The notes beneath the pieces were generated by a model that did not search any database, was not told the DNA's origin, and was given only the letters and a program-made list of their open reading frames with translations. Position numbers and translations under genes: made by a program. A DNA stretch of 64,000 nucleotides from Cliona cf. orientalis (Eukaryota; Porifera; Demospongiae; Clionaida; Clionaidae). Numbering within the stretch: position 1 is the stretch's first letter; every line of letters begins with the position of its first letter. Of this stretch, positions 10,515 to 64,000 are shown one piece after another. The stretch spans positions 10,414,006 to 10,478,005 of the forward strand of contig OZ005693.1 in NCBI GenBank assembly GCA_963930775.1, written 5' to 3'.

Positions 10515-10583
10515 AGTAGATAACTCCATGGATTTAACATTATGATAATACGTAGGTCTGCGTAGCACTCACGCAGCAGCAAG

Positions 10584-13311: not shown

Positions 13312-13376
13312 CGTAGATAACTCCATGGATTTAACACTATGATAATAGGTCTGTGCAGCACTCACGCAGCAGCAAG

Positions 13377-26296: not shown

Positions 26297-26536
26297 TACA
26301 GGTACTTGGACTCATGGTCATGGCATGTAGACAACTAAATATAGTATAGGTGATCAAAATTATTGGACTATAGCTATTATACTAGCAATCTGTGATACTT
26401 TTACTGTCGTAGTAGCTTCTCAGGCCTAGCTATTGGGGTACCAACCCCATGTGCACATGCATGCCTGTATGCTTTCAAAGAAATCTTGTGACTTTTGCGA
26501 AGGCTCGCCCCGCACAGATGATTTTCATCACCACTA
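26297..26536 (+). mobile_element. E1 right part fused to A4
   Basis: It starts within E1 at ACTACAGGTACTTGGACTC and runs to the complete right end CTAG. The junction removed the last 80 or so codons and the 3' flank of A4 together with the left part of E1. Confidence 0.75.
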
Positions 26537-28936: not shown

Positions 28937-29001
28937 AGTAGATAACTCCATGGATTTAACACTATGATAATAGGTCTGTGTAGCCCTCACGCAGCAGCAA
29001 G

Positions 29002-33532: not shown

Positions 33533-33596
33533 AGTAGATGACTCCATGGATTTAACATTATGATAATAGGTTTGTGCAGACTCGCGCAGCAGCAAG

Positions 33597-35335: not shown

Positions 35336-35801
35336 TTGCACATATTAATTTTAGTATATAAGTTTGTTCACTTAAATTTTGTTTTTATACTGATCTACGT
35401 TCCCTAATTCATGGTCAGGACTATTTTTACATTGTATATAGTTAGTATATAGCTACAGTGTTTGATATTCGATGTGCTTTTACTCAGTAACTTTTGTACT
35501 ACCATTAAATTTTCGTCAAGAGAAATTTCACCAATATTGACCTGATCTAGGTGCATGGCGACCTTTACCGCATCGTACTGACTAAGACATGCTTCAATTG
35601 TATAGCGTATACACACAGCAGAAGGACATCTATCAATATTCACGTGTTTAACATCTATGCTATACCTGCGTTTGCAAAAATTACTATAAATTAAAGAGTG
35701 CGTGCAGTTTGCGGTCAATACTGCGATCATCGCGATCACAAGTTAGCACACACAGAGCAGTATAGTGTCAAGGTATCGCCGACTGACACTATTCAAGTGA
35801 A

Positions 35802-38540
35802 ATGACTGTCGGTGCCGTTAGTTGTACACTAGCGTTCGTAGCGCTGCTATTTTGCAGTACTTGCAACTCTGCCGCCGCTCAGCAACCGGCCGCGAACGCT
35901 GGCGGTGCCGAACTCTCGGTCGCTGGTCTCTACCAAACCATACGTAAGGTCGCTTTTCCCGCCTCTCCTGACTTGCGAGCCGCCGGGAGTACCAGAGCAG
36001 ATGGACGTTTTATTCTCTTGATGCCGGGAAAGATTCTGAACTTCAATGATTACCATCCAGGTCTCAAGTATCAAAAAGATACCTTGGTATGGTAATAATT
36101 TAATTTATTAGCTAATCAAGTTAAAATTACTGTTGCTGATTCAGAATAGTTTGTGCACGGATTATCTATACAGACGTGATAGAATGTTGCATGCCTAAGT
36201 TAGCTAATCATGAAGGATTACGTTTCTGTATGCATAATATTCATCACTGACATGATTATGCATGCAGAATCCAGATGAGGGGACAAAATTTGCCGTCGTG
36301 CCTCCGCGGACAATGGAGAAATGGTTTGATCTTGCAGATGTGATACCCAGTGTTAACCCACTGAGTGGCCAGGATACTGGAAGGAGCCTTGCTAACATAT
36401 ATCGGTCGATTCTGAGTCAAATGACTATTAAAAATCTCAAGGAACAGGGTGACCGCATCCAAAGTCTGTATAACGAAGCCATTGGGTTTCTCAATAAGGT
36501 CATGCCTCATCCAGAGGATTTGACTAGAAACACAACTCGACTTGCTCTTTACAATGAGTACAAAGAACAGTACAATGATCGGAGGCTGAATATGGAGGAT
36601 ATTATATTAGAGAAACAGCAAGAAATGGAATCGCTTAAGTACCAGCTGTGGTTTCAGAGGAGCTATCCGTCACTTCTGGCAAAGGTCGAAAGTGCATACG
36701 TCAGGTGGTTGATATTCGGTCAAAAGGAGCTCTGTGATATTTACATTACCTACTTGGACACTGGCTCCTCTGCTAAGATTTTGGAAGAAGCCAGGGTGGT
36801 GTTGCGAGCTGCTGGTGTGACATCCTTGGATCGTACTCGCACCATATATCCTGTTAGTTTCGAGCCGTCTGACTGGTATAGGTATCTCCTTCCCACAGGG
36901 TAAGTTCAAATTTGCATGATATCATGTATGATGCATTTTACCACAGTGCCCTAAGCAAGTGCATGTCCACTCCTGGGTATAAGCATCCATGCGTGCATGT
37001 ACAACTCTTTTCAAATGTACATGGAGCAGCTTCTGCATGTCACAGTATGGGGATAAGTGACTACTATTATGTTGGCCGAAATTGCTCAAAGTTTTATTTT
37101 TGGTGCCGTACAATGGTATGTATCCCATTATTATATTATTTATAGTAAAGATGAGGCTGTACTATGCATGCTACAACCTTGCAAGGGTGTCGCCACCTTG
37201 TTACAAGCATGTACAACCTTGTAGGGATAATTGGTTTTTGTTTTTCTAGCATCAAGAAGCCAAGCAGAACCGAATTGCAGGGGGCACTTGGTATGATCAA
37301 CACCAGGATTAATACTATGAAAGGCACTATTGCTTTCTATGACCGTAACGATCCTTCATTTGACAACTATACTGAATTTTTGACCAATAGACAGAGTCAG
37401 CAGGCAGATAAAAGGGATAAAATTTTAAAACAATATCTTAGGAAAGAGCTGGATTGCACGATTAATAAGATGGGTATCAGTCAGGTCGGAAGTGGTTCCT
37501 GTAACGAAATGGCTACATTGTCACAAAATCTCACAACGCTTTCAGCCAATGAAGCAGATGCAATTGCCAGTACCGGAGACTTCAATTTGGGTGATCGTTC
37601 AAAACGTGCGTACATCGACTCTTTGTGGGCAAAAATAAGTGATTTAGAAGAAAAGAAGCAAAAAGTTGAAGACGCACTTTCTGATGTCGATCCTTTAGTT
37701 GGTGGCATTCTAAATGCAGATCCCATTACGATTGCTAGCATTAGGGATGCTCACGCAGATGAGAATTGGATGGAATTTCAATTCAACTCAGACGAATACA
37801 AATCTTCTTCTACATACTCAAGTAGCTACAAGCAATTTTCATCAAGTTCCAGGGTCAATGCCTGGTTTGCCAGCGGTGGACATTCATACTCTAATTCCAA
37901 AAGTCAACGAAGCTACGCATCTGACATGGCACAATCGTCAATGAATGTTAAAGGAAAGCTCCTTAGGGTGCATATCAAGAGGCCTTGGTTTAAACCGGAA
38001 GTTTTTGATGACCGAAACTTAGAATTTGTAAGTTACAACATTAATTGTATCCAAAATTAATCCTGTGTGGAGTATCACTATAACATAATATTATGTATAT
38101 GTATAGATGAATGTGCATTTAATTTTCTGCAGATTTCTAATACAGAAAGTGGTGGTAAATTGCTGGGATCACCTGGAAGGGGCTATTCTGAGATCGAGTT
38201 CATAAATGAAATCAATGGAAAGGCCGAAAGAAGAGACACAATGTACCAACTGCCGGAATATGTTACTTCCTTTCTCCTTGCTCGTGACATTGAGCTCGAG
38301 TTCTCTAAAATAAATAGGAAGACCTTTAGTGAAACAGTTTCGACGTTCTCTCACACCTCGGCGCATGCCTCCTTCTTCTGCTTCAGTGCAAGCTTCTCCT
38401 CCAGCAGCAGCAATTACAAGTCGAGGTCTAGCGTTCACAGGACGGCCAATGGTATGAAGATCAAGATGCCGGGCGCTCAGATCATCGGCTATTACACTCA
38501 GATCCTGCCCAAGTTCCCGGCCTCCTTAGCTACTCCATGA
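35802..38540 (+). CDS. B2: secreted protein of unknown family (700 aa)
   Basis: Model: join(35802..36086, 36268..36899, 37250..38027, 38133..38540). Exon phases and splice sites are the same as in B1. Signal peptide 1-26, then RFILLMPGK, MEKWFDLADV, the TRTIYPVSFEPSDWY end of exon 2, the coiled-coil and Ser-rich exon 3 with RPWFKPEVFDD, and the ANGMKIKMPGAQIIGYY C-terminal exon. The stop lies slightly further on than in B1, adding SLATP. Intron 2 is only 350 bp against 1.7 kb in B1, so B1 gained the repeats. Upstream sequence resembles that of B1. Function unknown, probably secreted. Confidence 0.83.
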
Positions 38541-40416: not shown

Positions 40417-43202
40417 TCATTTTGATGTAAACAGTGGTTGTGTCACAGTGCTGAGCGACTCATTTGCTGAAATAGGCGGTTCAGTCGTGAATAACATGTT
40501 ATACTCTTTTCCCGGCGAAGTAATAGTCTGTATCAGTTGTTCAAAATTCTCCTTAGCTTCAGTGACCCCATCCATTAGTTTCTGTATGCCTTCTCCGATT
40601 GGTTTGATGAATCCATTCCTGTGCAAATAAGAATCGCTCTCTGAGAGTTCCTGAGAGAACAGGCTTCTCGCTAGCTCCATCATATCAACTGGTGCGGTTT
40701 CTCCTTCGAAATCATCCACATCTCTTCGTCGCCGCCTTCTGCTACTCTGCTCATGTGATGAAACAGGTTTAGCTTTTGAGGCGGGGTGTTCTATGCATTC
40801 CTTTGCTTCGGGTGGTGGAGGCTGATCGGCAGGGAATCTTGATATCACTGTTGAGACATAAGCGACTATCTGTGCTCCAGGGATGGTAAGTTGGATCCCT
40901 CCATTGATCCTTTCCACTCGAAAGTTGTGTACGTCTTTTTTGGTGCCTTCTGCTGGTACAAACGAGAAAGGACCGTAACCACCCTCGAGGTTAGGAGCAT
41001 AAGCATACCTCATGAGCGTGTTGATTGCGTTATTTGTTTGGTTATCTGTATCAGAGTCATTTACAATCCCAAGTCCAGGAAAGAATATCTTGATATCGTT
41101 GGCGAGGATGAAGGATGTTGTATACTGAGGCATCAGGTATTGTCCATTTCGGATGACTTCGTGAAAATGTCTTGCTGGCTCTAGGGGTCCAGGTGACACA
41201 AGCCCTCTACCCTTTTTCTGCAGATAAATTCATTCAATTAATGTCCTCATTCTTCAAAAGTTAATTACCAAAATGTAAGATCTGCTATATGTACTTACCA
41301 ATGTAAAATGTTCCCAGTCTCTAAAAATAGCTTCATCAAACCACGCCCTCTTGATATTAACCTTGGTCAGAGCTGCTGATACTTTTGATGGAGCTGTGTT
41401 CATCAGCATTATGAAATCCTTGTATCTGTGAAATGATTTAGTCTGCAAATCGACCGAACATGAAGCAAGATTCCACAGCAGTCGTTCAGAAGTGTTAACC
41501 GGTATCTTTTCGTCTAGGCAGTACGGTACCATAGTATTATTGCCAACATCTACTGCAACTTTTCCACTGCACGTAACGGCATCCAAAACTGTATGATCTG
41601 ACTCGTATGTAAAGAGGGTTTTCCCCCAAGCAGTAGGGCAAGTTTTAACGTCGAAATTTATATTGGCCACCACCTCAGTATCCTTATCTATTCTTTCTCT
41701 CTCGGCTGTTTCTATACGCGAATCAAGAGCGTCCATCTCTCTTGCCATTTCATCCAGCTTGTCACCTATCACAATGATGCTTTCATTTCTACTATTTAGA
41801 ATGGCCTGTAAGTAGGCTGCTTGTTCATAGTGCTCAGCTATCTTGTCAACTATAAACCTGAATGCAGTTTGTCCGCTGGTAATGATTTCGCATGCACTGG
41901 CGTTCACTTGTGTGAAACATTCAATTTGATACTGCATCATTTTATCGATGGCGTTTTTCACGGTTGCACCGAGGTTTTCGAGGCTGGAGTTTATCTTTTT
42001 CAGAGTGTATTGAATGTCTTTGCTGGTGATGTTATGAAGCTCGTTTCGTGATGCCTTGAGCAACGCATACTGTGCTTGATACATTGATTTCAAGTAGCGT
42101 AACTCATCTGCACTCTGATCAACCCTGAAAGTATATAGTATGCACATACAATAAACAATTAACGTATACAGGAAGCAGTAGCTAATATAATTATTGATAA
42201 TTATTAGCAAAATTGACAGGAAGCTGTGATTATTAATGATTATGACGCATTATGATGTAATACCACTTACTTTGATTTGAGTACATTGTGCCAATTTTCG
42301 GGAATGAAACTCATTGGGTAAACCTTAAAGTGTGGGTCATCTTCGGAGAACCTTGCTGCCGATCGAAACAGGGCCCTCGATCTCATCAGCCGATCTTCCT
42401 GATTTCCAATGTCGAAGTATTGCAGCTGATTCTCCACCTCTGTCTTGTAGCCAAATATCTGCCACTTCATGTAGGCCGCCTCTGCGTTGCTGACCAGAGG
42501 TGGTAGCTCCTTGTGACCCCATTCCTTAAACTGCTGCTGACTAAGTTTCAGTCGTTTCGATTCTATTTCTGTGTCTCTCTTTCCGCTCTCTTCAAGGTAG
42601 TGGGCACGGTAGTAGTCGTAAAGGATCAAGCGAGGCAAACTTGAAGCACTTGCATCAACCACACTCTCAGGATTGGGAACGAGTTCTTGTAGATAGTACT
42701 TTGCTCTGAGCATCTCATCACTGGTGAAGTTCTTTGGTGTGACCATCATCTGCTCAAGGACATACTTGAAGGTGGACGAGAGAGAGTCAAAGTTGTAGTC
42801 CCTCAGAAGAGAATGTCCCGTTGTATTTATCGCCACAGGTTTGATTAATGATTCGGCTGGAAAGATTTTGTCCACAAGCGGTAGTGCCCTTTCAACAATG
42901 GACAGAGGAAGGCGTCCAAACTGGGAGAACAGACTCCCTGGTTGTGGCGTAGTGGTAACGCCAGGGTTAAAATCGTCAAATTTTAACATTTTCCCCATTC
43001 CTAGCACTTCGACGTGCTTGCTGCCAGACTCACACTGGATTACGTGCTTTTTGATGGTATCGTGCAGACTCCTGTAGATGTCATTTTGAACCGCTGTTGA
43101 AAAGCATTTTTGTTGCGGCGTTTGCGCGTCAGATGGGATTAGCGATGACACTAAAATTGCCGCGAAGAGCAACTTGCACAACATTGCTGAATTTATCATC
43201 AT
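40417..43202 (-). CDS. B4: long secreted B-family protein (852 aa) with RRRRRR site
   Basis: Model: complement(join(40417..41217, 41299..42124, 42271..43202)). Signal peptide from MMINSAMLCKLLFAAIL; a later Met is possible. It is the most diverged B protein: it keeps KMLKFDDFNPG, the KWQIFGYK and YPMSFIPENWH stretch, a coiled-coil exon, KRAWFDEAIF in place of RPWFKPEVF, and IPGAQIVAYVS in the last exon. After that motif it has about 130 extra residues: a proline run, SSRRRRRRDVDD (a possible furin-type cleavage site) and an acidic/helical tail. Exons 1 and 2 of B1-B3 are fused here. It is head-to-head with B3. Confidence 0.78.
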
Positions 43203-43459
43203 TATCTGTCGCTGGCACTGGATGCAAAGTGCGCTCGCTAACTATGAAATGCTGCTAAGCTGCTTTTGTATATTAAACTAGCTACTTTTGCCTAAAATGA
43301 GCTACGCGCTTTACGTTAATGATATTCATCGACCGGACACGATAATCTTACCCTTCCGTGTTTGAAAGGCATAAATGTGCGCTCTGCGGGATTTTTTGCT
43401 ACCATTTTTGCATGCGCTGTACTGTTTCGCACTCGCGGCACGCACAGTTCAGCGCAAAA
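43203..43459. promoter_or_regulatory. bidirectional promoter region of B4 and B3
   Basis: The 257 bp between the two start codons hold both upstream regions. A TTTGTATATTAAAC stretch (about 43265-43279) is a weak TATA candidate for B4. CpG dinucleotides are more frequent than in the surrounding DNA. Confidence 0.5.
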
Positions 43460-45852
43460 ATGACCATTGGTGTTCCATTTCGCACGCTAGCCCTCGTAGT
43501 GTTGCTGGTGCTCTGTTTCTTCAGCCGCCCTACTCTGCAGCAAGCCGGGACGGCCGCCGGCCAGAAAGCCGTGGACTCGGCCTTGGGACTCTACGATACC
43601 ATAAGGAGTATCGCCTCTCCGGGCACTGCGGTCAAGAACGCTAATCTTGACAGTCGCTTTATTCTCATGATGCCTGGAAAGGTTCTCAACTATCAAGATT
43701 ATCATCCTGGGCCGGAATATACCGAATTTGTCCAGGTATCTTAGTAGTTGTCGGAATACACGGAATTTGTGCAGTCGTGGTTATCATAGTCAGGTGCTCT
43801 TTTAAGCTAGTGCATTTCCTACATGGCTGATTTGTATAGGTGTATCAGAAGTATTAGATTTGTTGTCTGTGTGATTTATATAATTTGTAATATTTTCACA
43901 GAATAAAGATAAGGATCGGAAATTTGCTGTTGTGCCCCCACACATAATGGAGAAATGGTTTGATCTTGCAGATGTGATACCCAGTGCTAACCCACTGAGT
44001 GGCCAGGATACTGGAAGGAGCCTTGCCAACATATACCGGGGAATTCTGACTAAAATGACCATTAAAAACCTCAAGGAACAAGGTGAAGCAATCCAAAGTC
44101 TGTACAACCAAGCCATTGGATTTCTCAACGAAGTAATGCCTCACCCAGAGGACCTGGGTACCAACACGACTCGACTCACCCTTTACAATGAGTACAAAGA
44201 ATTGTACAATGATCGACGGTTGGAAATGGAGGACAAGATAGAGGAGAAACGAAGGAATCTTCAATATCTTGATTACGAGCTGTGGTTTCAGAGGCACTAC
44301 CCATCTCTCCTGGCAAAGGTCGAAAGTGCATACATCCGGTGGCTTATATTTGGACAAAAGGAGCTCTGTGATATTTACATTACCTACCTGGACACTGGTG
44401 CATCCGCTAAGACTTTGGAGGAAGCCAGAGTAATCATGAGAGCTGCTGGCGTGACGTCCTTGGATCGTACTCGCACGGTTTATCCTGTTAGTTTTGAGCC
44501 TTCTGATTGGTACAAGTTTCTTCTTCCACCACTGTAAGTTGCACTTTTTGTAGCCAATATCCTTATGATAATTATTATTATTCATTCTTATCGTTCCCAT
44601 TTTCATCCAGCGAAAATAAACCCAGCCGAACAGAATTGCAGGAACTACTTGGAAGGATCGATGGCAAACTTGAGACCATTACTGCCATAATTTCCTTCTA
44701 TAGGCGTGACAATGCTACACTCGAGGGCTATAATACACAGCTGTCCAACAGGCGACAAAGTCAGGCAAGGAACCGAAATACAGCCTTGAACAACTTTCTT
44801 CTGACAGAGCTAGAATGTACTGTGCGTAGTATGGGCATTCAGGTCAGCGGTAGCCCTTGTGACGACATGGTGGTAGCCTCACAACAATTTAAAAATTCTT
44901 CAGGCAATACAGCAGATTCAATTTCCAATGTTGGTGACTATAACTGGGCTTCTGACAATAGAGCTACATACATACAATCTCTAGAGAACGTAAAACTTGA
45001 TTTGGAAAGGAAGAGGGGTCTAGTTCTCGGTGCGCTCGGCAGGATAGATCCTTTGGTTGGAAGTATCCTGAACCTTGACCCAGTCGTGGTTGCTGGCATC
45101 ATCGATGCTCGCAAAGAAGACAGTTGGCTCGAATTTCAATTCAATTCAGAGGATTTCAGGAGCAGTTCTGACTACGCGAGTAGCTACAAATCAACGTCAG
45201 CGAGTGTTAGGTGGGGAGGTTGGTTTGCGAGAGGAGGATACTCTTACACACGTACCCGTAGTCAACAAACCTACCGAGCCACCTTGGCACAATCATCACT
45301 CAAAGCTCAAGGACAGCTCCTCAGGGTGCACATCAAGAGGCCCTGGTTTAAGCCGGAAGTATTTGACGATCGAAACCTAGCCTTTGTAAGTTTAATAAAT
45401 TATTATGATATACAGTTGAGCATAATACTTATTGTTTTTTTTGTTACATATTTCAGATTGGCAGTACACCGAATGGAGCGAATGTACTAGGGTCACCAGG
45501 AAGGGGCTATACAGAGGATGAGTTCATAGATTTAGTCAGTAACGATGGCGCTGGAGCAGGCAATGTCTACCAACTGCCAGAGTACGTCACCTCATTTCTC
45601 CTCGCTCGTAACGTGGAGCTCGAGTTCTCTAACGTGAACCGAAGGACCTTTCGAGACACTGTGTCGACGTTCACTCACCACTCGGCATATGTCTCCTTCT
45701 TCTGCTTCAGTGCAAGCTTTTCCTCAACCAGGAGCAACTATCGATCGAGATCGAGCATTCACAGAACAGCGAATGGCATGACCATCAGGATGCCGGGGGC
45801 TCAGGTGATTGGCTACTATACTCAGGTCCTGCCAAAATTCCCCTCCACTTAA
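43460..45852 (+). CDS. B3: secreted protein of unknown family (692 aa)
   Basis: Model: join(43460..43735, 43902..44533, 44611..45385, 45457..45852). I start at the Met of MTIGVPFRTLALVVLLV because a signal peptide follows directly, as in B1 and B2; upstream in-frame codons look untranslated. It has RFILMMPGKVLNYQDYHPG, MEKWFDLADV, TRTVYPVSFEPSDWY, a coiled coil, SQQTYRATLAQSSLKAQG and RPWFKPEVFDDRN, then LPEYVTSFLLARNVELEF and GAQVIGYYTQV. Same four-exon structure as B1 and B2, but with short introns and more divergence. Function unknown. Confidence 0.83.
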
Positions 45853-49273: not shown

Positions 49274-51738
49274 ATGAAGCTTGTAATTTTTGTTCTCTTC
49301 TTTCTTGGCGCTTTGGCCGTGGTTACGTGGGCCGCCAGTGATGATGATCGCGATTCAGCTGTCAAGAAATCGAGCGATATTCTAGCCGGACTCTACCAAG
49401 TCCTGAGGAATATTGCCTTCCCAAAATCTCCTTACTCGGCCCAAGAATCAGTGCATAACCGATTTATTTTCATGAATCCGGGTAAAGTGCTTAACTACTT
49501 CGACTATTATCCTGGTGATATGTACGCAGTTAGTATGAAGGCCAAGAACACGTCAGCTCCTCATGTACTGGTCCCTCCTTCAGTAATGGAGAAATGGTTT
49601 GACATTGCTGATGTGGTGGTCGGTGGAGATCTCAATTCTGGTGACACTGGAAAGAGCCTGGCCTCAATTTACTCAAATATCTTGTCCCAGATTAAGATAA
49701 AGGATTTTAAAACACTCTATAAAGATGCCGAAGCAAGGTACAATGAAGCAAAGATATTCCTCACAGAACCGGTTCAAAATCCAGTAAATCTATCCGAGAA
49801 AATAACCAGGATGAAACTGTACAGTGTCTTCCAAGAAGAGTATGCTGAAGCACGATTGAATATGGAAGAGAAAATAAATGATGCACGCCTTTCAAAATCA
49901 TCCCTGGAATATGAACTTTGGTTTCAGCGCAACTTTAAACTCTTAAATTCCAAGGTGGAGAATGCTTACTCCAAATGGCTCGTGTTTGGTCAAAAAGAGC
50001 TTGTCGAGCTTTATAAGACATTCATGGATGTGACATCAGCTGGCGCCGCGCTCGAAGAAGCTAGAGTATCATTGAGAGCTTCAGGTGTTACATCACTGGA
50101 TCGCACACGCACCATCTATCCAGTCAGCTTTGAGCCGAGTAACTGGTACGAGTACCTTCTTGCAAAGTAAGTGTACCTCAACAATATTAAATTTTGTTTA
50201 TTTGTGACGTGCTTATGGTTTATTTGTTTTTCTCCTTCTCGATTGCCTACCCCTCCCACCCACCCCCCTCCCCTCCCCCCTCAAATCATAATCTTGTATA
50301 AATCTGTCCTTATTATCCAGGGATACCCCTCCATCTCGTGACATGTTAATTGCTAAACGAAGCATGCTTCAGAGTGAACTCGAAACCCTCAATGCTACTC
50401 TCCGTTTCACATCACAAGGCCGGGACAAAGCTGAGCAGGCCACGAATGCCATGGAACAGAGGGTGAACTATACGTCAGAAAAGAGAGACAACGCCACTCA
50501 AGCGGCAGTTGATGCCCGCAATGAATGCATGAGCAACAGGGCTAAGAACAGAACTTCGACCAAGAAAGGCAAGAAAGATCCATGTAACACGTTCCAGCAA
50601 GCTGCCAATTCAGCCGTGGATGCCACATTTCAGAATGCCGCAGCATCATCAGAATACTTTAGCGCTAGTTTCCTGCTCAAATCGAATAAACAGTTCCAAA
50701 GTTTCATGGACTCTAGAATAAATGCACTAGAAAAGCAGATATCCGAGATTAATCAACAGCTGGAAGATTTGAAGCCAAATCAGGTGTATCTCGGTGAAAT
50801 TGCTGAGTCACCAGATCTGAAAGCAATCAACGACACTGGAGAACAAGATCTTGATAGCCAGTGGTTGAAGTTTGACTATAGCTCGGATTCAACACACATC
50901 GACACAGAACAGGAAACATCTTCTGTTGCCGTTGCGGCTGGAATAACCGCTAATTTCGGTCCAAAGGGCAACATAGGTCTCAATGGACACTATGGAAAGG
51001 GCGAGTCAGAGATGAAGAATGCTTTCAACAGTGCCAACCTCCAAGCATCTGGAGAATTACTGCGTGTATTCGTCAAACGTCCGTGGTTCAAGCCCAGTGT
51101 GTTTGATAATCCAATACTCAACTTTGTAAGCACTCTATTAAGCACAATCACTTGTGTATATATTATAGTATGGGAATGAATTTGGCGTAAGTAGTTATAG
51201 CCCCATCCCCAGTCCCATTTCCAATTCTCATATTGCATGTGGGGAATGGACCAAGGAAAGATTATAGCACTATAATTATATAATACCTTGTTTATTGTTA
51301 TTTTTACTGTTTGTTTGTACTAATTCACTATCTAATCACATGTAGGTTCAACATGATTCTGAATCACAAAAATTTGCCTATGTTTCCCCACCTCCCTCCT
51401 CTGAGAAACGACTCGCCGATATCGTCAACGGTAAACATAAAAACATCTACCTAATGCCCGAGTATGTGACCAGTTTCCTTCTGGCTCGGAATATAAAATT
51501 ACAATTCTCGGGTCTCGATTCCAAGAGCATCAGTAAGGGTATGCAGATGATGGCCGGGGGCGGTATCACTGGTGGATACAACATGTTTAGCTTTTCAGCT
51601 TCGGTTGGGGTGCAAAAGGGAAAGCAAAGTGTGACTGCTGATCGTACGGCGAATGGAATGGTGATCCACATCCCTGGAGCACAGATCATTGGCTACTATA
51701 CTCAAGTCATGCCGCAGTTTCCAAAAGAGCAAAGCTAA
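49274..51738 (+). CDS. B5: secreted protein of unknown family (696 aa)
   Basis: Model: join(49274..50166, 50321..51125, 51346..51738). Exon 1 is the fusion of exons 1 and 2 of B1-B3. Signal peptide MKLVIFVLFFLGALAVVTWA; RFIFMNPGKVLNYFDYYPG; VMEKWFDIADVVVGGDLNSG; TRTIYPVSFEPSNWYEYLL. Exon 2 is a long coiled coil with an Ala/Asn/Arg-rich stretch and a KKGKKDPC loop, ending RPWFKPSVFDNPILNF. Exon 3 has MPEYVTSFLLARNIKLQF and ANGMVIHIPGAQIIGYYT. Intron 1 has a C-rich tract (50249-50281). Closest relative is B6. Function unknown. Confidence 0.83.
50249..50281 (+). repeat. C-rich tract in B5 intron 1
   Basis: Runs of C separated by T or A over about 33 bp; the minus strand could form a G-quadruplex. 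It lies between the donor and the acceptor at 50320 and may serve as an extended polypyrimidine tract. Confidence 0.7.
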
Positions 51739-51993
51739 AGAAACACCCAACTAATAATATAAATTTCACTCACAAAACTATAGCTATAGTACTCGCAAAT
51801 ATTAATAACACGAGTGAATCTGTATAATATGTATGCATGTAGTAATACTACGATAACATTTCATATAGAACATACTATTGTGATATTTAGATACATCTAT
51901 GCCTGACTAGCTAGTCCATACATGTGTATGTTAATAGTAGTACTTACATTGTTATATGACGTATAATATTAATGTTGGAGCTCAATGGCTATC

Positions 51994-54900
51994 TTACATA
52001 AGGGATTCCTCAAATTCATCTTTCTTTGATTTCTTCGACTTTTTTCTCGACTTCTTTTGCATGTGTATGGTGACTTCAGAAGGTGCATCATGGCTCTCAA
52101 AGCTCTCGTATCGCACAGTGTCTTTGCTGTCTCCTTGATCATCACAATCATCTGGGTCATCTTGGTCTACAATTGTCAGACCTGACTTCTTAGATCTCAC
52201 ACGACCTGTAAGTTTAATAATATAATTTGGCATACATTATGATGCCATGGAAATCTGAGTGAACCAATTGATTATTGCTATGCCATAAAGTGATCACCTG
52301 CATAATTATATTGGGCGTTCTCAAAATTAAAATATGCATTATTTTTTAGAAAAAAAGTGACTGTCTGAAAAGTCATATACCCCAAAAATTCAATGAAATC
52401 CAAGCCAGCGCATAGCATTGATATGCAAGAGTTAGCTATGTTAATAAATGTGCCAGATACACGAGAGCCTGTATAGGAAATCACCATACCCTTCATATTT
52501 CCTCCATGGCCAGTGGTTTTTATATAATAAATGACTTTATGCTAGAAATGTATTACAAAATAAGGTACAGCATTATCCTAATAGTACTGTTACACGGAAG
52601 AGCATAGAAAGTGCTTGTATATTACCAATTAGTTACTCCAATTGCATAACACTATAGTATCCAGTACATATCTAGTACTCCCTCCCCATTCAAAGAAATG
52701 TCAAACATACTATGATCGATAGCTACATAACTTGGAACTGCGTTGTGTTTATCTTTTGTAATCTATTGTTACGATATGTATATACATAGATTATTTTTTT
52801 ACAAAGCCTACACGACTTTTGTGGCCAAAGCTACCAGCTGGCATAATATTAACAATCGTGTAATAATTATTATTCTTATAATTTCCTGGGCCAATGGTAA
52901 GTTTACTCTTTCAGTTCCCATGACTAGGAAAAATAATAAACAGGGCTTGCCTGTTTGGTCCGTGCAAACTGTCGGTACAAAAATTTTGCATTAATTCCGT
53001 CTGCTAAATGAATACAAAAACAATGTTTTGATGATTTAGCATTTATAAACAGCCATGCATGTACATCATGATTTTATGCAGTTTTATCTGCTAGTATATG
53101 CAAAATTAACACATATACTATATAGGGAAGTGTGACCCCAATTTGAAACTCATCAACAACTAGTAGCTAGCCATCACGGTAGGGCTGATAAATCTTTAAT
53201 GCTAGAGAATTTTAGATGGGGACCGAATTAGTCAGTGATCTCCTTAAGTATTCATTGTGTGCGTGGTTTATAATATTTAGAGAGGCATCAGTTGATCATT
53301 AAGATAACCATAATATTACCGGAGGAAAATTATTGTGAGCTATACATGTCTGGGTTTCCAATTAAGCCATGTACATGGCAAAGCCATAAAATTAATGTAC
53401 TATAGTACAAAGCCATAAGTACTAGGTTTATGACTGCCACCAGGTGCTGTTAATACGTATGTGTGTGTGTGAAGAGAGAGAGAGAGAGAGATACCATATG
53501 AAAGTGACTGTCACTCTGATACGAATCTTTTACAATTTACAACATCACTCCCTTCCCTATTGGTTGTCCAAAAACATGACATTATTCCAGTCAACTTGGT
53601 TTGTATCTCCCTCAGTCTGAGAACTGAAAGCAAGTAAAGTTGTACATGTCCATTCCAGATTGTATAGTAAATTAATGCTTGTGATGCAAGACGGTGACAG
53701 TGATAACATTATTCATAACAACTGGTGAGTATCAGATGTGACATTGAAAGCTGTAAGGTTTTTTTATACAATGCATCCTAGCTAGCTTAAGGTCAGTGCT
53801 TCAGGTAGCACTAGCAAATCAAAACGAAAAATTGAAATCTCAATGTAAAAACAACCAAAAAGTGGCGTGTAAAGTCATCATCCTACTACTCGATGACATG
53901 GCTTTTTACTAGGACAGAATAGTCGACCTGTGTTCAACACAACTGGGAAACGCTGGGAAAACTCTTATCGATGCTTCACGACATTAGGTGTTACTATACT
54001 AACTACAGCAAGCAAGCAGGGAATCGATGCTCAATCTGTGCACCGTACAGCACGGAAAACTACAAGCTACACATGTTATCATCACAAATATGATATAAAA
54101 GCAGGTGTATACCAAATGTTGTCCTATGTTTTCACAACAGCTATTGTGCAGTATTATAATATCCCCAGATTAAAGCTCATAGTAACTATCAATCAGAAAA
54201 AAAAACCTTTTCCAAATCCCATGACATTTTGAAGAGTTGGTCTATTTCTGCATATGCTGCCGCTTTTTCAACAAATATAGCTATAATATTATTTTGTATA
54301 CATTTAGACTGGGCAATGGTATATATACATGTATACAAACATAGGTCTGATAATTTATTGTTCCAGTAACATATCAAAGATCAACTTTCCCATTGAAATC
54401 AATCAGTAAACAAGTTTGCATCTCCTAGAGAATGAACTATAAGTGTATACATATATACGATTGCTGTGCCAGGGATAAGTGTACATTGATAGCAGCTGTT
54501 CTAGGGACGTTTAGGTAGAGGATATCGTAATGTTGATACAAAACTGAAATTTGTTCAATGGTAAACCAAGCGAGATATTATACAGCACTGCATGGGATAG
54601 ATCTAGAGAAAAAATTCTGGCACGGTAGCCTATCTTTTGCATTTCCATTGGACATTTTTTTCAGTTTTAACAGACTACATTTAGCATGCATACAGTTTTC
54701 AAGTTGTTTTTTTATTTTAGAGCTCACCTTCACTGCACTTCTTGCATGCTCGCCGGCATAGTTTCACAATTACAGCAAAGATTATCAAAAACCCTATGAA
54801 TGCCAAAATCGCAAGAACTCCACCAACGGCGATTTCAATGATCTGAATCTTTCCAATATGAAATTCATCTGCCAAGTTTTAAATTCAAGTGTCAATCATA

Positions 54901-56525
54901 GACGTTAAAATCAGGTATTGCTTACCTGAAGTAATCTCTTCCCTGGAAGTCACTCCTAATAATGTAAAAATAAGAAATTACACACATAGTTATTAAAAGC
55001 ATTATTAAGTATCAGTGGTGTATATAGAATTCTGGAGATACCCAGAAACTAGCTTGTCACATTATGATACAGCGTCATGTATTTGTGCATTCCTAGCCAT
55101 AGTAATAATATTATTATTGCAATCATGATACTGGCATAGATTCTATACCGTAAGTATTGCATAACAGTAGCCAAGGACCTACCTATATTATACTATCATA
55201 GGCCCTAGCTGGTGTAGCTAAGCCGCTGATAAACATGATAGCTATTTATCCAACAGCTGTGTGCATTGCTTGAAAAAACATAAGCCTGAAACCTGTTTAT
55301 GCTGGTATGCAGGTACTGTAGTAGCTAATAGCTACAAAAAAGCCCTAGTAAAGTTTTGAAAGATTTGATCTAGGTTGAAAAAAGCAGCTCAGAGTCCGCC
55401 GATAGTGCAGCGCTCTGACCTTTGCACTCCGGTTCTGAGTCACTCCAGTTGCCATTCCTCTGACAGAACCTATACTTTGAACCCTGCAGCTCTGTTCCAT
55501 TGGCACAGTGGTACTCAATCCTATTGCCGACAAAGATGTTGTTGGGGTCGTCATCTTCATAAGAGATACCACCATTAGTGATGTTTGTTGGTCGATCACA
55601 CTGGTCAACGGTTACTGCATTAAATGAATAAATGTTATTAATTTACATAGAAATTATTACTCTAATCTTGATCTTGAGGATATCTCACTTAAGTATTCTG
55701 AAAAGTACACTATAGCTATATGCTTGTTTTTGACTTGTGATTTTCCTTGATATTAAAAATAATTAGGCAAAGTACTAAGTAAACATAGACTTCACGTTCT
55801 ATACAATGATTGAATGTGGGAAATTATGCACTAAAAACCATATACACCACTCTGTAATATTATGCAAAGCTTCATACCTCATTAATCTTAAGATTACTGT
55901 TTGTGGTCTAATTTATTGGGAAATAGGAAACTCACATAAGCACTCCACAGGTGCAGTGGTGGTGTCCCCATTCCATATACCATACTCGTCACAGACAAAC
56001 TCCTTTTGTCCGCGAATGCTTTGGAGAGTGTAGCCTTCACTACAGACATAGCGCCCAACACACCCAGCTCCAAGGTTTAGGTCGGAATAAACAACTGCCC
56101 CATTCTTGACCTCAGGTAGCTTGGAACAAGCATTGTCTGGGGGAACTATTACAGGAGAGCAAAACCATCACTGATGCCGTAGACTACGCAGTCTAAATTA
56201 TCTATGGTAATACTAGCTCAAAATTAAATTATCTTCAATCAATAAGAGTATTATTAAAATTCTTGTTTCAATGCTTACTGACTCCCAATCGTATGAGCTT
56301 TTGTTCCAATACTGCAATGCTCCTGTTGAGCTGACGCGCTCCCTCGGCTAGCCTCCGTCGATCGTCCGCGCTAGTGCACGTAGGGGAATCGGGCTTTGCG
56401 CGATAGTGGCACCTGTCCCCGCTGGGTCGAAGGTAACACGGCACACCCGTGTCGGTAAATCTGGCGTAAATGCAGAAATTGTGAGTAAGTAGTAGAGAAA
56501 CCACCGATAGAAATATAGCCGACAT
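51994..56525 (-). CDS. C2: type I receptor with two sushi domains (344 aa)
   Basis: Model: complement(join(51994..52205, 54728..54868, 54926..54955, 55420..55614, 55936..56145, 56279..56525)); all introns are phase 1. I start at MSAIFLSVVSLLLT because it opens the signal peptide. The N-terminal Cys-rich piece (DTGVPCYLRPSGDRCHY), coiled coil and both sushi domains are almost identical to C3. Stalk (VTSREEITS), membrane helix (VGGVLAILAFIGFLIIFAVIV, with a Glu just before it) and tail differ. The tail shares only VR..SGL.IVDQ with C3, then has VRYESF and ends in a lysine/serine-rich stretch (KKSRKKSKKSKKDEFEES). The last intron is 2.5 kb and could hide another exon. Confidence 0.8.
52206..54727 (-). 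other. last intron of C2 (2.5 kb)
   Basis: AT-rich, with many stops. A (GT)n(GA)n microsatellite lies at about 53459-53492. No convincing alternative exon or mobile element was seen. Confidence 0.55.
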
Positions 56526-57419
56526 TTTCTCCTCTGCTTCCAGTCTACTGGTTCGCCTTGTTAAGTTGGTATGGATCACCGAGCCAACAAAATCTGTTAG
56601 TTACGTGCGCATAGCCGTATGCACCTAACCTTACGGTGTGACGACCTCTACCAAAAATTGTGCATGTGCAACTGCATGCTCACTTCGCAGGGCCGCCGGA
56701 ACCGGTCAGGCTGGTCCGGTCAGGCCAAAACCGGACCACTTGTTTCAACGCTTGGTTGGGTAATGGTCGTTTATTTTATTTATCGCATGGTAAAGATCGT
56801 CAGGTAATAAATCGCGCATGCTTGATAGTGCAATCAGCATACCAACTCGTCTTCAAATGAGCTTCCTAAGGTATTTGTATATTTTGGTCCTAGTTCAACA
56901 GTCTTTAAAACTTAATGTAAGTGGAGAGATTGTTTAGATCATGAGGCTGCCTTCTGCTATCAAAAATTCTCTGTTGAACTCTTAATTGGGATTTGGGCCA
57001 TAATATAAATATTGGCCAGTGAAAGTGGTCTCAAAAGCCATCAGAAGCAATCTCTGAGGTTGTAAATTACAAAATTTTCCTGGGGGAGCATGCCCCCAGA
57101 CCCCCCTAGTTTTGCGTGCTTACGCACGCATTTGCTCTTAAAGTTGGCCTGACCACATGTAAATTGCTTCCTCCAGGCCTGCTTCGTGATTATGGTAGCA
57201 AAAGTCTGCCCAATAATATGATGTATCAGTGTCTGTAAGTCTGGCGTGATTGCAATTACAAATGTAGTCAACGAGCTCAGTGATCTAAGCCTGTAAATAG
57301 TATTCTTGAATGGTAAAGATCACCGAGCCAGAATGTACACTGATTGTACCAAATAAGCGGTAGCACGTAATAATTACGCATGCGCACATAGTTACTGCCC
57401 TTCGCTACAAAAGATTAAC
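56526..57419. promoter_or_regulatory. head-to-head region between C2 and C3
   Basis: This 894-bp gap is the centre of the inverted duplication. Both flanks contain ATCACCGAGCCA (56569-56580 and about 57320), but in the same orientation. GGGGGAGCATGCCCCCAGAC (about 57083) is a dispersed repeat also found, in variant form, at 18446. A CCGG-rich block (AACCGGTCAGG, GGTCCGGTCAGG) lies at about 56699-56740. Confidence 0.45.
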
Positions 57420-60022
57420 ATGATGTCGAGGTTCTCTGTCACTTTTCTAGCTGTTTATTCCCTGTGGCTCCTTCACAGTGCCTGCCACGCCAGATTTTCA
57501 GACACTGGTGTGCCGTGCTACCTCCGACCCAGCGGGGACAGGTGCCACTATCGCGCAAAGCCCGATTCCCCTACGTGCACTAGCGCGGATGATCGTCGGA
57601 GGCTAGCCGAGGGAGCGCGTCAGCTCAACAGGAGCATTGCTGTATTGGAACAAAAGCTTATAAGATTGGGAGTCAGTAAGCATTGAAAAGATTATGCATT
57701 CTTGTGCTGGTGCTCAGGGTGATTTTTGCTCTCCTGTAATAGTTCCCCCAGACAATGCTTGTTCCAAGTTACCTGAGGTCAAGAATGGGGCAGTTGTCTA
57801 TTCCGACTTAAACCTTGGAGCTGGATGTGTTGGCCGCTATGTCTGTAGTGAAGGCTACACTCTCCAAAGCATTCGCGGACAGAAGGAGTTTGTCTGTGAC
57901 GAATACGGCGCATGGAATGGGGACACCACCACTGCACCTGTGGAGTGTTTATGTGAGTGTAGCATGTTAATCGTCCAATAATTAGCTAATAATGCATTCA
58001 AAAAATACAGTTAGTAGCTGGTAATAATAATTGTGACCTGCTATGAGAAAAGGGACCACTCAGGATATTTTATAAAAATTGAGTTTTTGGTATGGATTGA
58101 TAGCTCTATGTGTGCTGAATCCAATGGTGTAAGTTTCATGAAAAAATAGTGATCATAAGTGGAGTTATGACCATTTTTATGCACTCGGGTAGGTATATTA
58201 GTTTTTTGGAAAATGCGCATTTTTAATTGAAATTTACATTAATTTGTATGCGCCCAAGTAAATAATAATGCCCATAACTATAGTTTACATGTTGCAACTC
58301 TATGAACATGGCATATCACTATGAAGCCAAAAATTTACATTTTCCAATCGACCAAAAAACAGAAAAGTGAAAAATAATAATCTTCCACACATTTTAGCAA
58401 TTATTAGAAAATGAAAAAATATCCCAAGTGGTCCCTTTTCTCATAGCGGGTCACAATTGTCCCCTATTATATTATTATGATATATAGTAGCAGCCCTTTA
58501 TGAGTTTTGTGTGAACACGTGAATCATGCATTGTGAAGCTTTTCCCTACAAAAAGCAATGGAGGGGCACAAATTGCATAATAATATAGTTATTCCCCAAA
58601 TACTATCACCCAGTAACCGTTGACCAGTGTGATCAACCAACAAACATCACTAATGGTAGCATCTCTTATGAAGATGACGACCCCAACAACATCTTTGTCG
58701 GCAACAGGATCGAGTACCATTGTGCTAACGGAACGGAGCTGCAGGGTTCAAAGTACAGGTTCTGTCAGAGGAACGGCAACTGGAGTGACTCAGAACCAGA
58801 GTGCAAAGGTCAGCTGTGTCCATTAAAATTAATTTTGATGTGGTTATTTTAGAGTGTGCAGTCGTATACATGACATTAGAATCTGATGGCTCCTTACACA
58901 ATTATAATTAGCTAGTGCCATGCAGATAAGGTGTTCAAAATTGCCTAATCAGCAGTCGAGTTATTATTGCTGAAGCGATAATTATTTTAATTCCATACAG
59001 AAATTGTGCAAGTGGTCACAGAGCAAGAAACATCCTCTGCCCCAGGTATGGAGCAATATAATTTTATTTCAAGGGACCATTCTTGATCAACATAATAACA
59101 TTGATTGAAGATACACGATTAATAAATACAGTGACAACACCAGCTGCAGCTGCTAGCGCTGAAGAGCAGTCAAGTGACGATCGTCGTCATCTGCACCTAG
59201 TGATCATGCTTGGTTGGATTTCCGCTATATTACTGTTCATTATTGTCTTGATAGTCATTGTTGTGACAGTCAAAAAGATTCAACGATTAGTCAAGAAAAA
59301 GAAAGAAGGTATATACACATTAAGTTATTCTACTGCATGTTGTCAAGCAGTTTACTTCCTTTTGTGAAGTAGATAGTGCTCCATTCATGTATTGTCGATT
59401 TACTTTCACTGCCATGCCCCTTTCCAACACAATCACAGTCTGAACTATTCTCAGTTCTTGATAATAATTATTATAGTTTAGCCGTTTGAATAGGATAGTA
59501 CCGGTAACATGCCACAGGAAGGAAGTCATGTTCCTAGTCAATAAAAATAATGAAAACATGAGCTGCATGCTCTTGTTGGCTACTAGACATGTAGTTTCAA
59601 TATCACCCATAGTACATGTGTCTGAAAGGAAGAATAATATTATTGATGTTCGTCCATGACAAAATTTCACTGTGTGTCAGTGGCTCACTTTCACAGTGAC
59701 CTTTGCCTCAAACAATGATAATATATACCAGTCCTGTAGACTAGGAACTTGTCATTATTATTATTATATTATAAAGGGGCTCCCCACTATAGCCTCATGC
59801 TTTATGACAAACTAGGGTTGATTCCTACGTCATAATAATATTAATGCAGGTCATGTGAGATTTCTTCGCTCCGGTCTTGTCATCGTCGATCAGGAAGATG
59901 AAGATGAGACAAATGAGAATAACAATAGGGGTAGAAATAATCGAATAGAGTATGAGAACTACGGAAGTGATGATGAATCTGAAGTACCCACTGAATCCTC
60001 AGCAAGAATGATCAAGAAATAA
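57420..60022 (+). CDS. C3: type I receptor with two sushi domains (351 aa)
   Basis: Model: join(57420..57675, 57743..57952, 58614..58808, 59001..59045, 59132..59308, 59850..60022), phase 1 throughout; intron 1 is only 67 bp. Signal peptide MMSRFSVTFLAVYSLWLL; Cys-rich piece DTGVPCYLRPSGDRCHY; coiled coil (RQLNRSIAVLEQKLIRLG); sushi 1 (NACSKLPEV...PVECL); sushi 2 (DQCDQPTN...EPECKG). Stalk (VQVVTEQETSSAP plus an Ala/Ser-rich stretch), membrane helix WISAILLFIIVLIVIVVTV, basic KKKKE, then an acidic tail (IVDQEDEDETNENN) with IEYENYGSDDE. The ectodomain is nearly identical to C2. Ligand unknown. Confidence 0.83.
58030..58457. mobile_element. 428-bp TIR element in C3 intron 2
   Basis: AATTGTGACCTGCTATGAG at the left is matched inverted by CTCATAGCGGGTCACAATT at the right. 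The repeat continues inward through AAAAGGGACCACT and ATATTTT, about 40 bp in all. The ends resemble E2 (GTGACC...TGAGAAAAGG.ACCA). No open frame. C2 lacks it in the equivalent intron. Confidence 0.8.
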
Positions 60023-60263
60023 TCCAGCTGAATATTTTCCATGAAAGGAATATTATCAACTGTAAACACACATTGTCAACTAATCTTTCAATAATAATGC
60101 AATAGTGGGTAGCTACAATAAACATAAACAAAAAATTATTCATTACTGATAGTACTAGTTATTATGATATGAAATACTAGCTACTTATTCTGGCTGTTCT
60201 ATTAACTGTAACTTTTACTACAGTGTTATTCTATTATCCTGTCAGAGTGAACTTCATTAATGT

Positions 60264-63200
60264 TCAATTTTGTTCTTTTGGAAACTGCGGCATGACTTGA
60301 GTATAGTAGCCGATGACCTGTGCTCCAGGGATTTCTATTATCATGCCATTAGCTGTACGATCAGCAGTCATGCTATTCCTCGAAAAACGGAAGCCAAGAT
60401 TTCCACTACCACCAACCACCAATGGCACTCCCTCAAGAATGAGCGAAGCACCAACATCTATTGAATAGCCAAACATGGCCTGCATTGCTCTACTGACACT
60501 ATTGGAGTCAAGACCAGAAAACTGCAATTTTACATCACGAGCCAAAAGAAAACTTGTCACATATTCTGGCATCACATAGATATTGTCAGCCTTGCCATTG
60601 ATGATATCAGCAAGTTCTTGTTCGGTAGAGGATGGCGGAGAAACGTAAGCTATTTTCTTTGTCTCATAGTCATATTGGATCTGCAAGAAAATCAATGATA
60701 TTAATTGATGATAATCTCTCTCTCTTGGAACTTACAAAGTTGAGTATTGGATTATCAAACAGACTAGGCTTGAACCACGGACGTTTGATGAACACTCGTA
60801 GTAATTTTCCTGATGCTTGGAGCTTTGCGTTGCTGAATGCTTTCCGCAGTTCTGCAAATTCAAAACTTGTCTTTAAGGAGTCACTAAAACTCCCAACTGC
60901 GGGAACCTCCACACTTCTCCCAAAACTTAGACTAATTCCAAACCTAGTTTCAGTGGAACTTGTGTGTGTAGTCTCAGAATTGTAGGAGAACTTCATCCAC
61001 TGATCAAGGCCCTCTTCTCTCCTCCCATTCAGTTCTCCAATCGATTCAGTAATCTCACCCAAATACACCTGATCACCTTCCAGGTTATCTAGTTGTGTGT
61101 TAAGTTCAGATATTTCTCTCTCGAGTGCTGTCATTCTTGCTTGCACATAATTTCGATACTGTTGATTGGACTTGAGGAGAAAAGCAGCAGTGAGGTAGTT
61201 GGCAGTTGCTCCTGCATTCTTCAATGTCGTATCTTCTACTCGATCTGCTGACTCTTCAAACTGGGCACATGGATCTTCTTCAGAATCTTCACCCTCCCCA
61301 CTCTCTCCTTGATTGGCCTGTTTCTGCATGCAACGGTTACGAGCATTCATAGCTGCTTCTGTGGCCTCATCTCTCTCATCGGAAGTGGCATTAACTCTTT
61401 GTTCGAGTGCGTTGGTTGTCTGCTGGGCTGCTTGCTGATTTTTGGATTCAGACGCGACCCTGATAGCAGTCCGGAGTGTGTCCAATTCACTCTGAAGCAC
61501 ACTTCGTCGAGCAATCAGCATATCACGTGTTGGAGGCCTACCACTGCAGTGAAATGAATAAGTATACATGGAGTGGGTGGGATATGATATTATTATGGCA
61601 CTGGAATTAATCCTTAATTTGAACCCTCCTAGTATGTGTATACCCTTTAAGTCTCAAATTGAGAGAATACCACTGTACAAACTATAAATTATAATCAGTT
61701 CGGTTCCCCAATTCCTAAGTGTGTATACCACTTAAGTAATTAGTTTGGTGGAGTGTTATATATACCCACTGCGTACCTGTCTTTGCCAGCAGTTGAAAAC
61801 TGACCCAGTATAATAATTATACGGTTGCATCAGATATAGCAGTACTATTATTATAGTAGAGTCAATTAATAATTATATGAAATTTTCCAAACTTTATGAC
61901 TCTACAATACAGTAGCTATAACTTTTGTGAACTTTTAATATCTTATAGCTTGTCTTCTACATTTAAATGTCTTTCCTTTTCTGTTTGTTTTCGTTTCGAA
62001 TACATTACCCCTTTCCTCTCTGTTGTGTCAACAAGGTATAATACCTATACAAAACTGTTTTTCGCTCAAGTCTGATACAAGTTGTGTACCAGATTTGAAT
62101 GAAAAAACAGTGTCACAGTTTGTAATTGTTTATGTACCTGAGTTTAGATCATTATTTAAATAGCACTATTATTATGTGTATACTATAGGCTCGAATATAA
62201 AATAGTTTATAGAAATAGAGAAGTAAGAATCCATGTTGATCACTGAACACTGGTTGCAATGCTTCTTTTATCGTTATCTCCCGACCCAGATAATCATATA
62301 AAATTAATGTCCAAAAGGTGACTTTTCTATGCTGAGCTCTAATACTAATAAGCATCATTAATAATAATAATTTCTACTTTAGTTTGAATCATTGGTAACT
62401 TTTTCAGCAGCATATATAGAATGCAAAATTAATGTTCTCATTATGTCCAAATTTATACACAGATTGAATCATCCCTTAGAATGGAGCACCCATAATATTA
62501 TAATAACAAACTACAGGTACAGCCGTGATTCAACTCACTTTTCTAAAAGATATTCATACCAGTTACTTGGTTCAAAGCTGACTGGGTAGATGGTGCGTGT
62601 GCGATCCAGTGATGTAACACCTGAAGCTCTCAACGATACTCTAGCTTCTTCGAGCGCGGCGCCAGCTGATGTCATGTCCATGAATGTCTTATAAAGCTCG
62701 ACAAGCTCCTTTTGTCCAAACACGAGCCATTTAGAGTATGCATTCTCAACTTTGTCATTGAGGGGTGAAAAGTTACGCTGAAACCAAAGCTCATATTCCA
62801 GTGAGGTCTTACTTAATCTTGCATCATTTAGCTCCTTTTCCAGCTTCAATTTTTGATCAGCATACTCCTCTTGGTAGATACTGTACAGTTTCATCCTGGT
62901 TATATTCTCAGATAAATTCACTGGGTTCTGGATTGATTCAGTGAGAAAATTCTTTGCTTCATTGTACCTTGCTTCAGCATCTTTGTAGAGTGTTTTAAAG
63001 TCTTTTATCTTAATCTGGAACAAGATATTTCTATAAATTTGAGCCAGGCTCTTTCCAGTGTCACCAGAATTGAGATCTCCACCAACCACCACATCAGCAA
63101 TGTCAAACCATTTCTCCATTACTGATGGAGGAACCAGTACATGAGGAGCTGACGTGTTCTTGGCCTTCATACTAGCCGTGTATAAATCTCCAGGGTAGTA

Positions 63201-63437
63201 GTCATCATGGTTAAGTGCCTTGCCAGGTACTAGGAGTATAAATCTGTTGTGCACTGTGCTGCTCCTTGAGTATGGGGACTTTGGAAAGGCAATGCTTCTC
63301 AAGGTCAGATAGAGGTCGCCTAATATCCTGCCAGATCTTTGTGCTGCTGCTTTTCTCTCCTCGTCATTCTTGTCTGCTTCTACCATGAAGCTAAAAGTAG
63401 CCAGCATAGAAACTAGAATCAAAATTACCAACTTCAT
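60264..63437 (-). CDS. B6: secreted protein of unknown family (707 aa)
   Basis: Model: complement(join(60264..60680, 60736..61543, 62539..63437)). Three-exon structure as in B5. Signal peptide MKLVILILVSMLATFSFMVEA; RFILLVPGKALNHDDYYPG; VMEKWFDIADVVVGGDLNSG; TRTIYPVSFEPSNWYEYLL. Exon 2 is a coiled coil with an acidic GESGEGEDSEEDPC loop where B5 has a basic KKGKKDPC loop, and ends RPWFKPSLFDNPILNF. Exon 3 has MPEYVTSFLLARDVKLQF and ANGMIIEIPGAQVIGYYT. Exon 1 is much closer to B5 than exons 2 and 3 are. Divergent from C4, convergent with C3. Confidence 0.83.
61544..62538 (-). other. intron 1 of B6
   Basis: About 1 kb of AT-rich sequence, against 154 bp in B5. No recognised repeat or exon. Confidence 0.55.
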
Positions 63438-63913: not shown

Positions 63914-64000
63914 ATGGCTGCACATGCTATGAGTACAGTAACTTATCTCTCTATCGTGTGCCTCTTGGTGGCCAGTAGCACAAGAGCTGCCTATGAATCT
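63914..64000 (+). CDS. C4: start of a further sushi-receptor gene (partial)
   Basis: The first 29 codons read MAAHAMSTVTYLSIVCLLVA and end ARAAYES-like (TRAAYES), the same as the signal-peptide end of C1 (ARAAYES). The gene runs off the window. Its position opposite B6 mirrors C1 opposite B5, which is the main support for the call. Confidence 0.65.
   Translation, partial: MAAHAMSTVTYLSIVCLLVASSTRAAYES

Follow-up and report, generated by a model that had tools for sequence, protein, structure and literature searches.

Introduction

In the mammalian CEACAM pairs, similarity between paralogues peaks in the ligand-binding exon and hardly extends into the introns, and the exons of the CEACAM1 N domain have a ratio of nonsynonymous to synonymous divergence (dN/dS) of ~1 between species, as stated in the sections of PMC2832619 that deal with these exons. 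In primates, the genes for Siglec-11 and Siglec-16 lie ~9 kb apart and their ectodomain exons have been homogenised by repeated gene conversion, the converted stretches being fragmented and the exons concerned evolving under relaxed constraint (PMC5701461, in its sections on conversion). Sushi-bearing receptors of invertebrates are encoded in gene clusters of Botryllus as fester, uncle fester, and their co-receptors; the co-receptors carry tyrosine-based tail motifs, and fester and uncle fester resemble each other over one half of the gene only (PMC12065747, in its account of these genes). Here we describe two adjoining sushi receptor genes, C2 and C3, in a stretch of 64,000 nucleotides (contig OZ005693.1 of GCA_963930775.1, positions 10,414,006 to 10,478,005 of the forward strand; hereafter the window). 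Their mature ectodomains are nearly identical, their remaining exons are strongly diverged, and their history probably includes gene conversion restricted to the ectodomain exons.

By its features, the C2/C3 pair stands outside CEACAM, Siglec, and fester and appears to evolve like a paired receptor, and the closest systems in pattern are the mammalian CEACAM pairs and Siglec-11/16. Like CEACAM1 and CEACAM3, C2 and C3 are paralogues with different tails and very similar exons for the putative ligand-binding part, whereas CEACAM proteins have immunoglobulin (Ig) domains and tails with either an immunoreceptor tyrosine-based inhibitory motif (ITIM) or a motif resembling the corresponding activation motif (ITAM), and C2 and C3 have sushi domains and a common tyrosine motif (the same sections of PMC2832619). 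The dN/dS of ~1 for the CEACAM1 N domain was obtained between species and the ~0.04 of the C2/C3 ectodomain between paralogues, so that the two comparisons differ in kind. With Siglec-11/16, as PMC5701461 describes them, C2/C3 would share linked genes and homogenised ectodomain exons. However, the Siglecs are Ig-like lectins with known inhibitory and activating outputs, while C2/C3 are under strong constraint; the relaxed ectodomain of the former and the strict one of the latter are again values from different kinds of comparison. Fester combines an Ig domain with three membrane helices, whereas C2 and C3 have two sushi stretches each and no Ig match, and uncle fester has an unrelated N-terminal half, the reverse of C2/C3 (the same account in PMC12065747). 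Sponge sushi genes that respond to microbial patterns have been reported (a passage of PMC6208332), from which no link to C2/C3 can be drawn. Exact-wording searches of open-access texts found no combination of paired receptors with Porifera, and none of paired receptors with gene conversion and invertebrate or with a narrower head-to-head wording, results that do not by themselves show absence from print.

Results

The gene models were rebuilt solely from the DNA letters, with splice sites picked by eye (Table 1). C2 (minus strand, 56525..51994) and C3 (plus strand, 57420..60022) are adjoining head-to-head genes of six exons each that appear complete, and the initial annotation had bounded its feature exactly by their two stop codons. 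The start codons are 894 bp apart (56526..57419), and the two halves of this centre have no blastn match to each other. A third gene, C1 (minus strand, 49127 to 46386), has a matching six-exon layout, and every one of the 15 introns in these genes is GT-AG and in phase 1. The proteins (344 residues for C2, 351 for C3, and 336 for C1) share the order of signal peptide, cysteine-rich piece, helix, two sushi domains, short stalk, membrane helix, and tail. Against a Pfam cut-off of 20.7 bits, Sushi scored 60.7 bits in C3 (E 1.9e-16) and 56.6 bits in C2 (E 3.4e-15), in two stretches each, and 63.7 bits in C1 (E 2e-17), which makes all three Sushi (short consensus repeat/complement control protein) proteins. 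At E up to 1, Sushi was listed for the three proteins and no Ig family was; the Ig-type ectodomain of CEACAM and Siglec was accordingly not found in them, nor the fester combination of Ig, sushi, and three membrane helices in C2 and C3, in which one strongly hydrophobic exon follows the sushi exons (the best segment alone was scored). In the predicted structure of the mature exon 1 piece of C3 (mean predicted local distance difference test score, pLDDT, 68), the helix alone is confident, spanning residues 32–60 with pLDDT ~95 for residues 41–60 and 75 for 31–40, while residues 1–20 are mostly below 50. Leucines 39, 46, 53, and 57 of this helix are common to C1, C2, and C3, and their spacing, read directly, is that of a coiled coil.

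Over the 197 codons of the mature ectodomain, the parts of which the initial annotation had noted as almost identical, 193 residues (98%) are the same in C2 and C3, with synonymous divergence (dS) of 0.26 and nonsynonymous divergence (dN) of 0.011. Amino acid identity and dS are 98% and 0.23 in mature exon 1, 99% and 0.25 in exon 2, and 97% and 0.33 in exon 3. The remainder is far less alike: 47% of 19 aligned residues in the signal peptide (dS 2.5, on just 14.5 synonymous sites), 30% of 10 residues in the stalk exon, 42% in the membrane exon (dS 1.3), and 40% in the tail (dS 2.4), such that the signal peptide, membrane, and tail exons are near synonymous saturation. Of the 131.5 synonymous sites of the mature ectodomain, 29 differ, compared with 52 of the 76 in the signal peptide and exons 5 and 6 taken together (Fisher p = 7e-11; stalk exon 4, of 10 codons, was excluded). 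C2 and C3 agree at 70 of 82 fourfold-degenerate positions inside the ectodomain and at 6 of 18 outside. Divergence is thus unequal among exons, in support of the earlier proposal that the ectodomain exons alone were homogenised. The accompanying suggestion that this was recent does not hold, because 22% of the synonymous sites differ within the homogenised exons.

A dN/dS of ~0.04 between C2 and C3 places the ectodomain under strong purifying selection. One of its four amino acid differences, Gly in C2 and Ser in C3, lies two residues past Asn169, and the Ser, in C3 exon 3 (58614-58808), creates an extra N-glycosylation sequon at Asn169 of sushi 2. The GC fraction at third codon positions (GC3) of C3 is 122/220 in exons 1–3 versus 42/115 in exons 5–6 (p = 0.001), which speaks for conversion.

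Intron 2, which separates the sushi exons, aligns between C2 and C3 no better than shuffled sequence, its score being reached by 127 of 300 shuffles. Introns simulated at d = 0.26 never scored as low as the observed one (0/300 under both indel settings), and those simulated at d = 0.40 did so in 0 and 1 of 300 cases under the two settings. A control pair of A-type genes (19.7-23.8k / 35.8-38.5k; the type of the neighbouring gene A, below) has exon dS of 0.11–0.19 and introns that can still be aligned, with Jukes-Cantor (JC) distances of 0.16, 0.36, and 0.39. The intron 2 test for conversion is strong but not decisive. Intron 1 is identical at its ends, over 13 bp after exon 1 and 19 bp before exon 2, which favours DNA over a spliced copy as the donor. 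Within C3 intron 2 lies a 430-bp element (58029..58458) with 43-bp terminal inverted repeats that are 93% identical; blastn found no other copies in the window.

The stalk, membrane, and tail exons had initially been considered largely unrelated apart from VR..SGL.IVDQ. This overstates the case, as the tail alignment scores 87 (maximum of 47 among 2000 shuffles) and the membrane exon alignment 61 (shuffle maximum 47), and the two genes have homologous, if diverged, membrane and tail exons with phase and order preserved; past IVDQ the tail match is indeed weak (score 41, equalled by 13 of 2000 shuffles). The tails had also been contrasted as acidic and lysine-rich. Net charge after the membrane helix is 0 in C3 and +2 in C2, and the lysine-rich C-terminal extension of C2 is real but accompanied by acidic stretches.

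With an ITIM pattern taken from the part of PMC2832619 that defines it, I being additionally allowed at the end, and with the usual definitions for the remaining motifs, neither tail matched a canonical ITIM, ITAM, immunoreceptor tyrosine-based switch motif (ITSM), or hemi-ITAM (hemITAM) pattern. No charged residue occurs in the hydrophobic core (21 residues) of either membrane helix. Both tails have the tyrosine motif [VI]xYE[SN][FY] at an aligned place, as VRYESF in C2 and IEYENY in C3, each already noticed at the outset, and this motif was absent from the C1 tail. Opposite outputs of the two tail motifs were considered and dropped in view of the shared tyrosine motif and the lack of ITIM/ITAM patterns and of charged core residues; inhibitory versus activating roles for C2 and C3 are for the latter reasons unsupported. 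Under the usual definitions, VRYESF also fits YxxPhi and IEYENY fits YxN, which hints at sorting for C2 and adaptor binding for C3.

C2 and C3 form the middle of a larger inverted duplication, with the gene order C1- A+ C2- / C3+ B- C4+ arranged around the 894 bp between them. The mirror neighbours A and B span ~14 kb from 49274 to 63437, and a Pfam search with the three open reading frames (ORFs) of A gave no family above the cut-off. In the first long exon of A (49274-50170) and B (62535-63437), near-identical patches alternate with highly diverged ones: among 14 windows of 40 codons each, some have a proportion of differing synonymous sites (pS) of 0.06–0.31 amid others at 0.45–0.86. Synonymous difference there tracks protein difference (Spearman 0.93, seven non-overlapping windows), and the longest identical run is 47 (permutation P 0.006), while synonymous change approaches saturation in exons 2 and 3 (dS 1.7 and 2.1). 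The exon 1 patches look converted, comparable to the mosaic conversion reported for mammalian gene pairs (in the relevant passage of PMC2720389). A rule by which conversion persists where protein constraint keeps the DNA similar and is lost elsewhere fits these data. For C4, only the start is in the window, and positions 63981-64000 equal C1 at 49063-49044, a perfect 20-base match that runs to the end of the window; the match begins, by eye, just before the end of the signal peptide, and the upstream signal peptide differs. This suggests that C1/C4 may follow the C2/C3 pattern, although 20 bases are too few to judge.

Elsewhere in the window, more members of the A-type family occur at 40417-43241 (-), 43346-45852 (+), 19741-23797 (+), and 35787-38540 (+); by eye they look secreted, and two are head-to-head near 43.3k. 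An array of long ORFs encodes very similar proteins of ~580 amino acids that look multi-pass by eye (2805-4550, 10566-12311, 13335-15089, 25023-26349, 28984-30726, 33570-35335), with the copies at 25.0k and 33.6k split between frames; Pfam gave no match for the one searched (2820-4550). An ORF at 6349-7938 (-), recognised by eye alone, resembles a reverse transcriptase of a long interspersed nuclear element (LINE)-type element. Scans for relatives confirmed none in viral contigs for the C3 ectodomain, the 576-amino acid protein at 2820-4550, or A-type proteins, and none in genome contigs for A-type proteins; the 1, 58, 0, and 30 pattern matches all failed tblastn, and such single-protein scans reach close relatives only. 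Window positions 57400-57690 had no match among phages, and the A-type protein at 42267-43241 had none among sequences of solved structures. The model of the A-type exon 1 (mean pLDDT 44) is uninformative.

Table 1. Positions of C1–C4, A, and B in the window.
Feature	Position	Strand	Content
C3 exon 1	57420..57675	+	signal peptide (57420-57488, end by eye), Cys-rich piece, coiled-coil helix
C3 exon 2	57743..57952	+	sushi 1
C3 exon 3	58614..58808	+	sushi 2
C3 exon 4	59001..59045	+	stalk
C3 exon 5	59132..59308	+	stalk and membrane helix
C3 exon 6	59850..60022	+	tail with SGLVIVDQ and IEYENY
C2 exon 1	56279..56525	-	signal peptide, Cys-rich piece, coiled coil
C2 exon 2	55936..56145	-	sushi 1
C2 exon 3	55420..55614	-	sushi 2
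C2 exon 4	54926..54955	-	stalk
C2 exon 5	54728..54868	-	membrane helix
C2 exon 6	51994..52205	-	tail with SGLTIVDQ, VRYESF, lysine-rich end
C1	46386..49127	-	six-exon gene; sushi exons 37-39% amino acid identical to C2/C3
A	49274..51738	+	neighbouring gene; divergent from C1, tail-to-tail with C2; span of three coding ORFs
B	60264..63437	-	mirror copy of A; divergent from C4, tail-to-tail with C3; span of three coding ORFs
C4 (start only)	63914..64000	+	runs past window end; signal peptide ends STRAAYES

Discussion

C2 and C3 probably go back to an old inverted duplication of a type I sushi receptor, in whose two copies DNA gene conversion homogenised the mature ectodomain. The low dS of the ectodomain points to conversion, because protein constraint by itself leaves synonymous sites free to diverge, and conversion restricted to these exons best accounts for the divergence pattern. 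The three ectodomain exons would have been homogenised well after the duplication, at a time when strong protein constraint had kept only these exons similar enough to pair, and when the introns, together with the exon sequence for signal peptide, stalk, membrane helix, and tail, had become too different to pair; conversion may have stayed within the ectodomain exons for this reason. A comparable case is the Dlx pair of Capitella teleta, in which likely conversion between inverted neighbours is confined to one constrained exon region and 12 intron bases (PMC3199776, in the section on this pair), although the Dlx genes encode transcription factors and C2 and C3 receptors.

Several observations weigh against this account. 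The 34 differences over the 591 ectodomain bases are spread as if by chance (longest identical run 65, permutation P 0.49), so that no tract edge lies inside the exons, which would indicate one old reset instead of ongoing conversion. The control-pair distances imply that introns may evolve at up to ~2.5 times exon dS, which could place intron 2 at d ~0.65, and simulated introns score as low as intron 2 in 6 and 25 of 300 cases at d = 0.57 and in 119 and 172 of 300 at d = 0.8. Constraint could explain the identical ends of intron 1, since splice signals lie within them. The GC3 excess of exons 1–3 does not extend to C1 (p = 0.28) and is of borderline significance in C2 (p = 0.05), and the run test for A/B exon 1 ignores uneven selection along that exon. 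Finally, conversion is inferred here from a single genomic sequence.

The observation behind the initial annotation is confirmed, and its interpretation is partly supported. True paired immune receptors, in which one activating and one inhibitory tail read the same pathogen or self ligand in an arms race, would explain linked genes with a homogenised ectodomain and diverged tails, as in Siglec-11/16 and the CEACAM pairs, and the extra sequon in sushi 2 of C3 also agrees with them. Near-identical linked ectodomains and divergent tails are both present, whereas opposing tail motifs were not found: the tails share one tyrosine motif, and both helix cores are uncharged. The dN/dS of ~0.04 is also unlike the relaxed or neutral ectodomains of Siglec-11/16 and CEACAM, and we consider such an immune pair unlikely.

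It is somewhat less probable that exon shuffling or a chimeric duplication joined a younger ectodomain cassette to older and different membrane and tail exons. The sharp drop in identity past exon 3 would follow, and introns that evolve at 2–2.5 times the silent-site rate make the loss of similarity in intron 2 less improbable. However, a cassette would have brought introns 1 and 2 along, and intron 2 has no detectable similarity while intron 1 is alike at its ends only; the membrane and tail exons are homologues with order and phase kept, and the neighbours A and B have patches within a single exon. Conversion by a spliced complementary DNA (cDNA) copy, homogenising exons and skipping introns, has a smaller chance still. 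Identity between C2 and C3 does end close to the exons, as such a copy would predict: it reaches 13, 6, and 5 bases into the introns past the donors of exons 1–3, and only 3 bases upstream of exon 3. It nevertheless includes the intron 1 bases on both sides, and the patches of A and B begin and end inside one exon. Conversion by cDNA would favour 3' exons, and those of C2/C3 were not homogenised. A plain old duplication under extreme codon or RNA constraint, with no conversion at all, is highly improbable despite the strong protein constraint (dN 0.011), because pS between the ectodomain exons of C2/C3 and those of C1 is 0.62–0.86 (exon 1 including the signal peptide) and the silent sites there are thus not generally frozen.

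Both receptors may bind the same partner and possibly mix via their nearly identical coiled coils, while the divergent tails with one common tyrosine motif would pass the event to different intracellular machinery. That C2 and C3 read one ligand with different outputs is, in our estimate, about evenly balanced. A dN/dS of ~0.04 suggests that the ectodomain fits a slowly changing partner, for which a self ligand, the product of a neighbouring gene, or the other receptor via the coiled coil are candidates.

Similar outsides and dissimilar insides kept by gene conversion are a mark of vertebrate receptor pairs in which one ligand leads to two outputs. A sushi-type pair in a possibly early-branching animal would be a concrete and testable candidate for recognition signalling, and purifying selection on the shared ectodomain separates a ligand kept constant from an arms race. 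More speculatively, and somewhat against our own expectation, the locus may be a palindromic cluster in a non-bilaterian, probably a sponge, with two pairs (C2/C3 and C1/C4) of conversion-matched, conserved ectodomains and freely diverging tails, in which coiled coils mix and combinations of tails read one ligand. If true, this would set the paired-receptor design far outside the vertebrates, with a conserved self partner in place of a pathogen.

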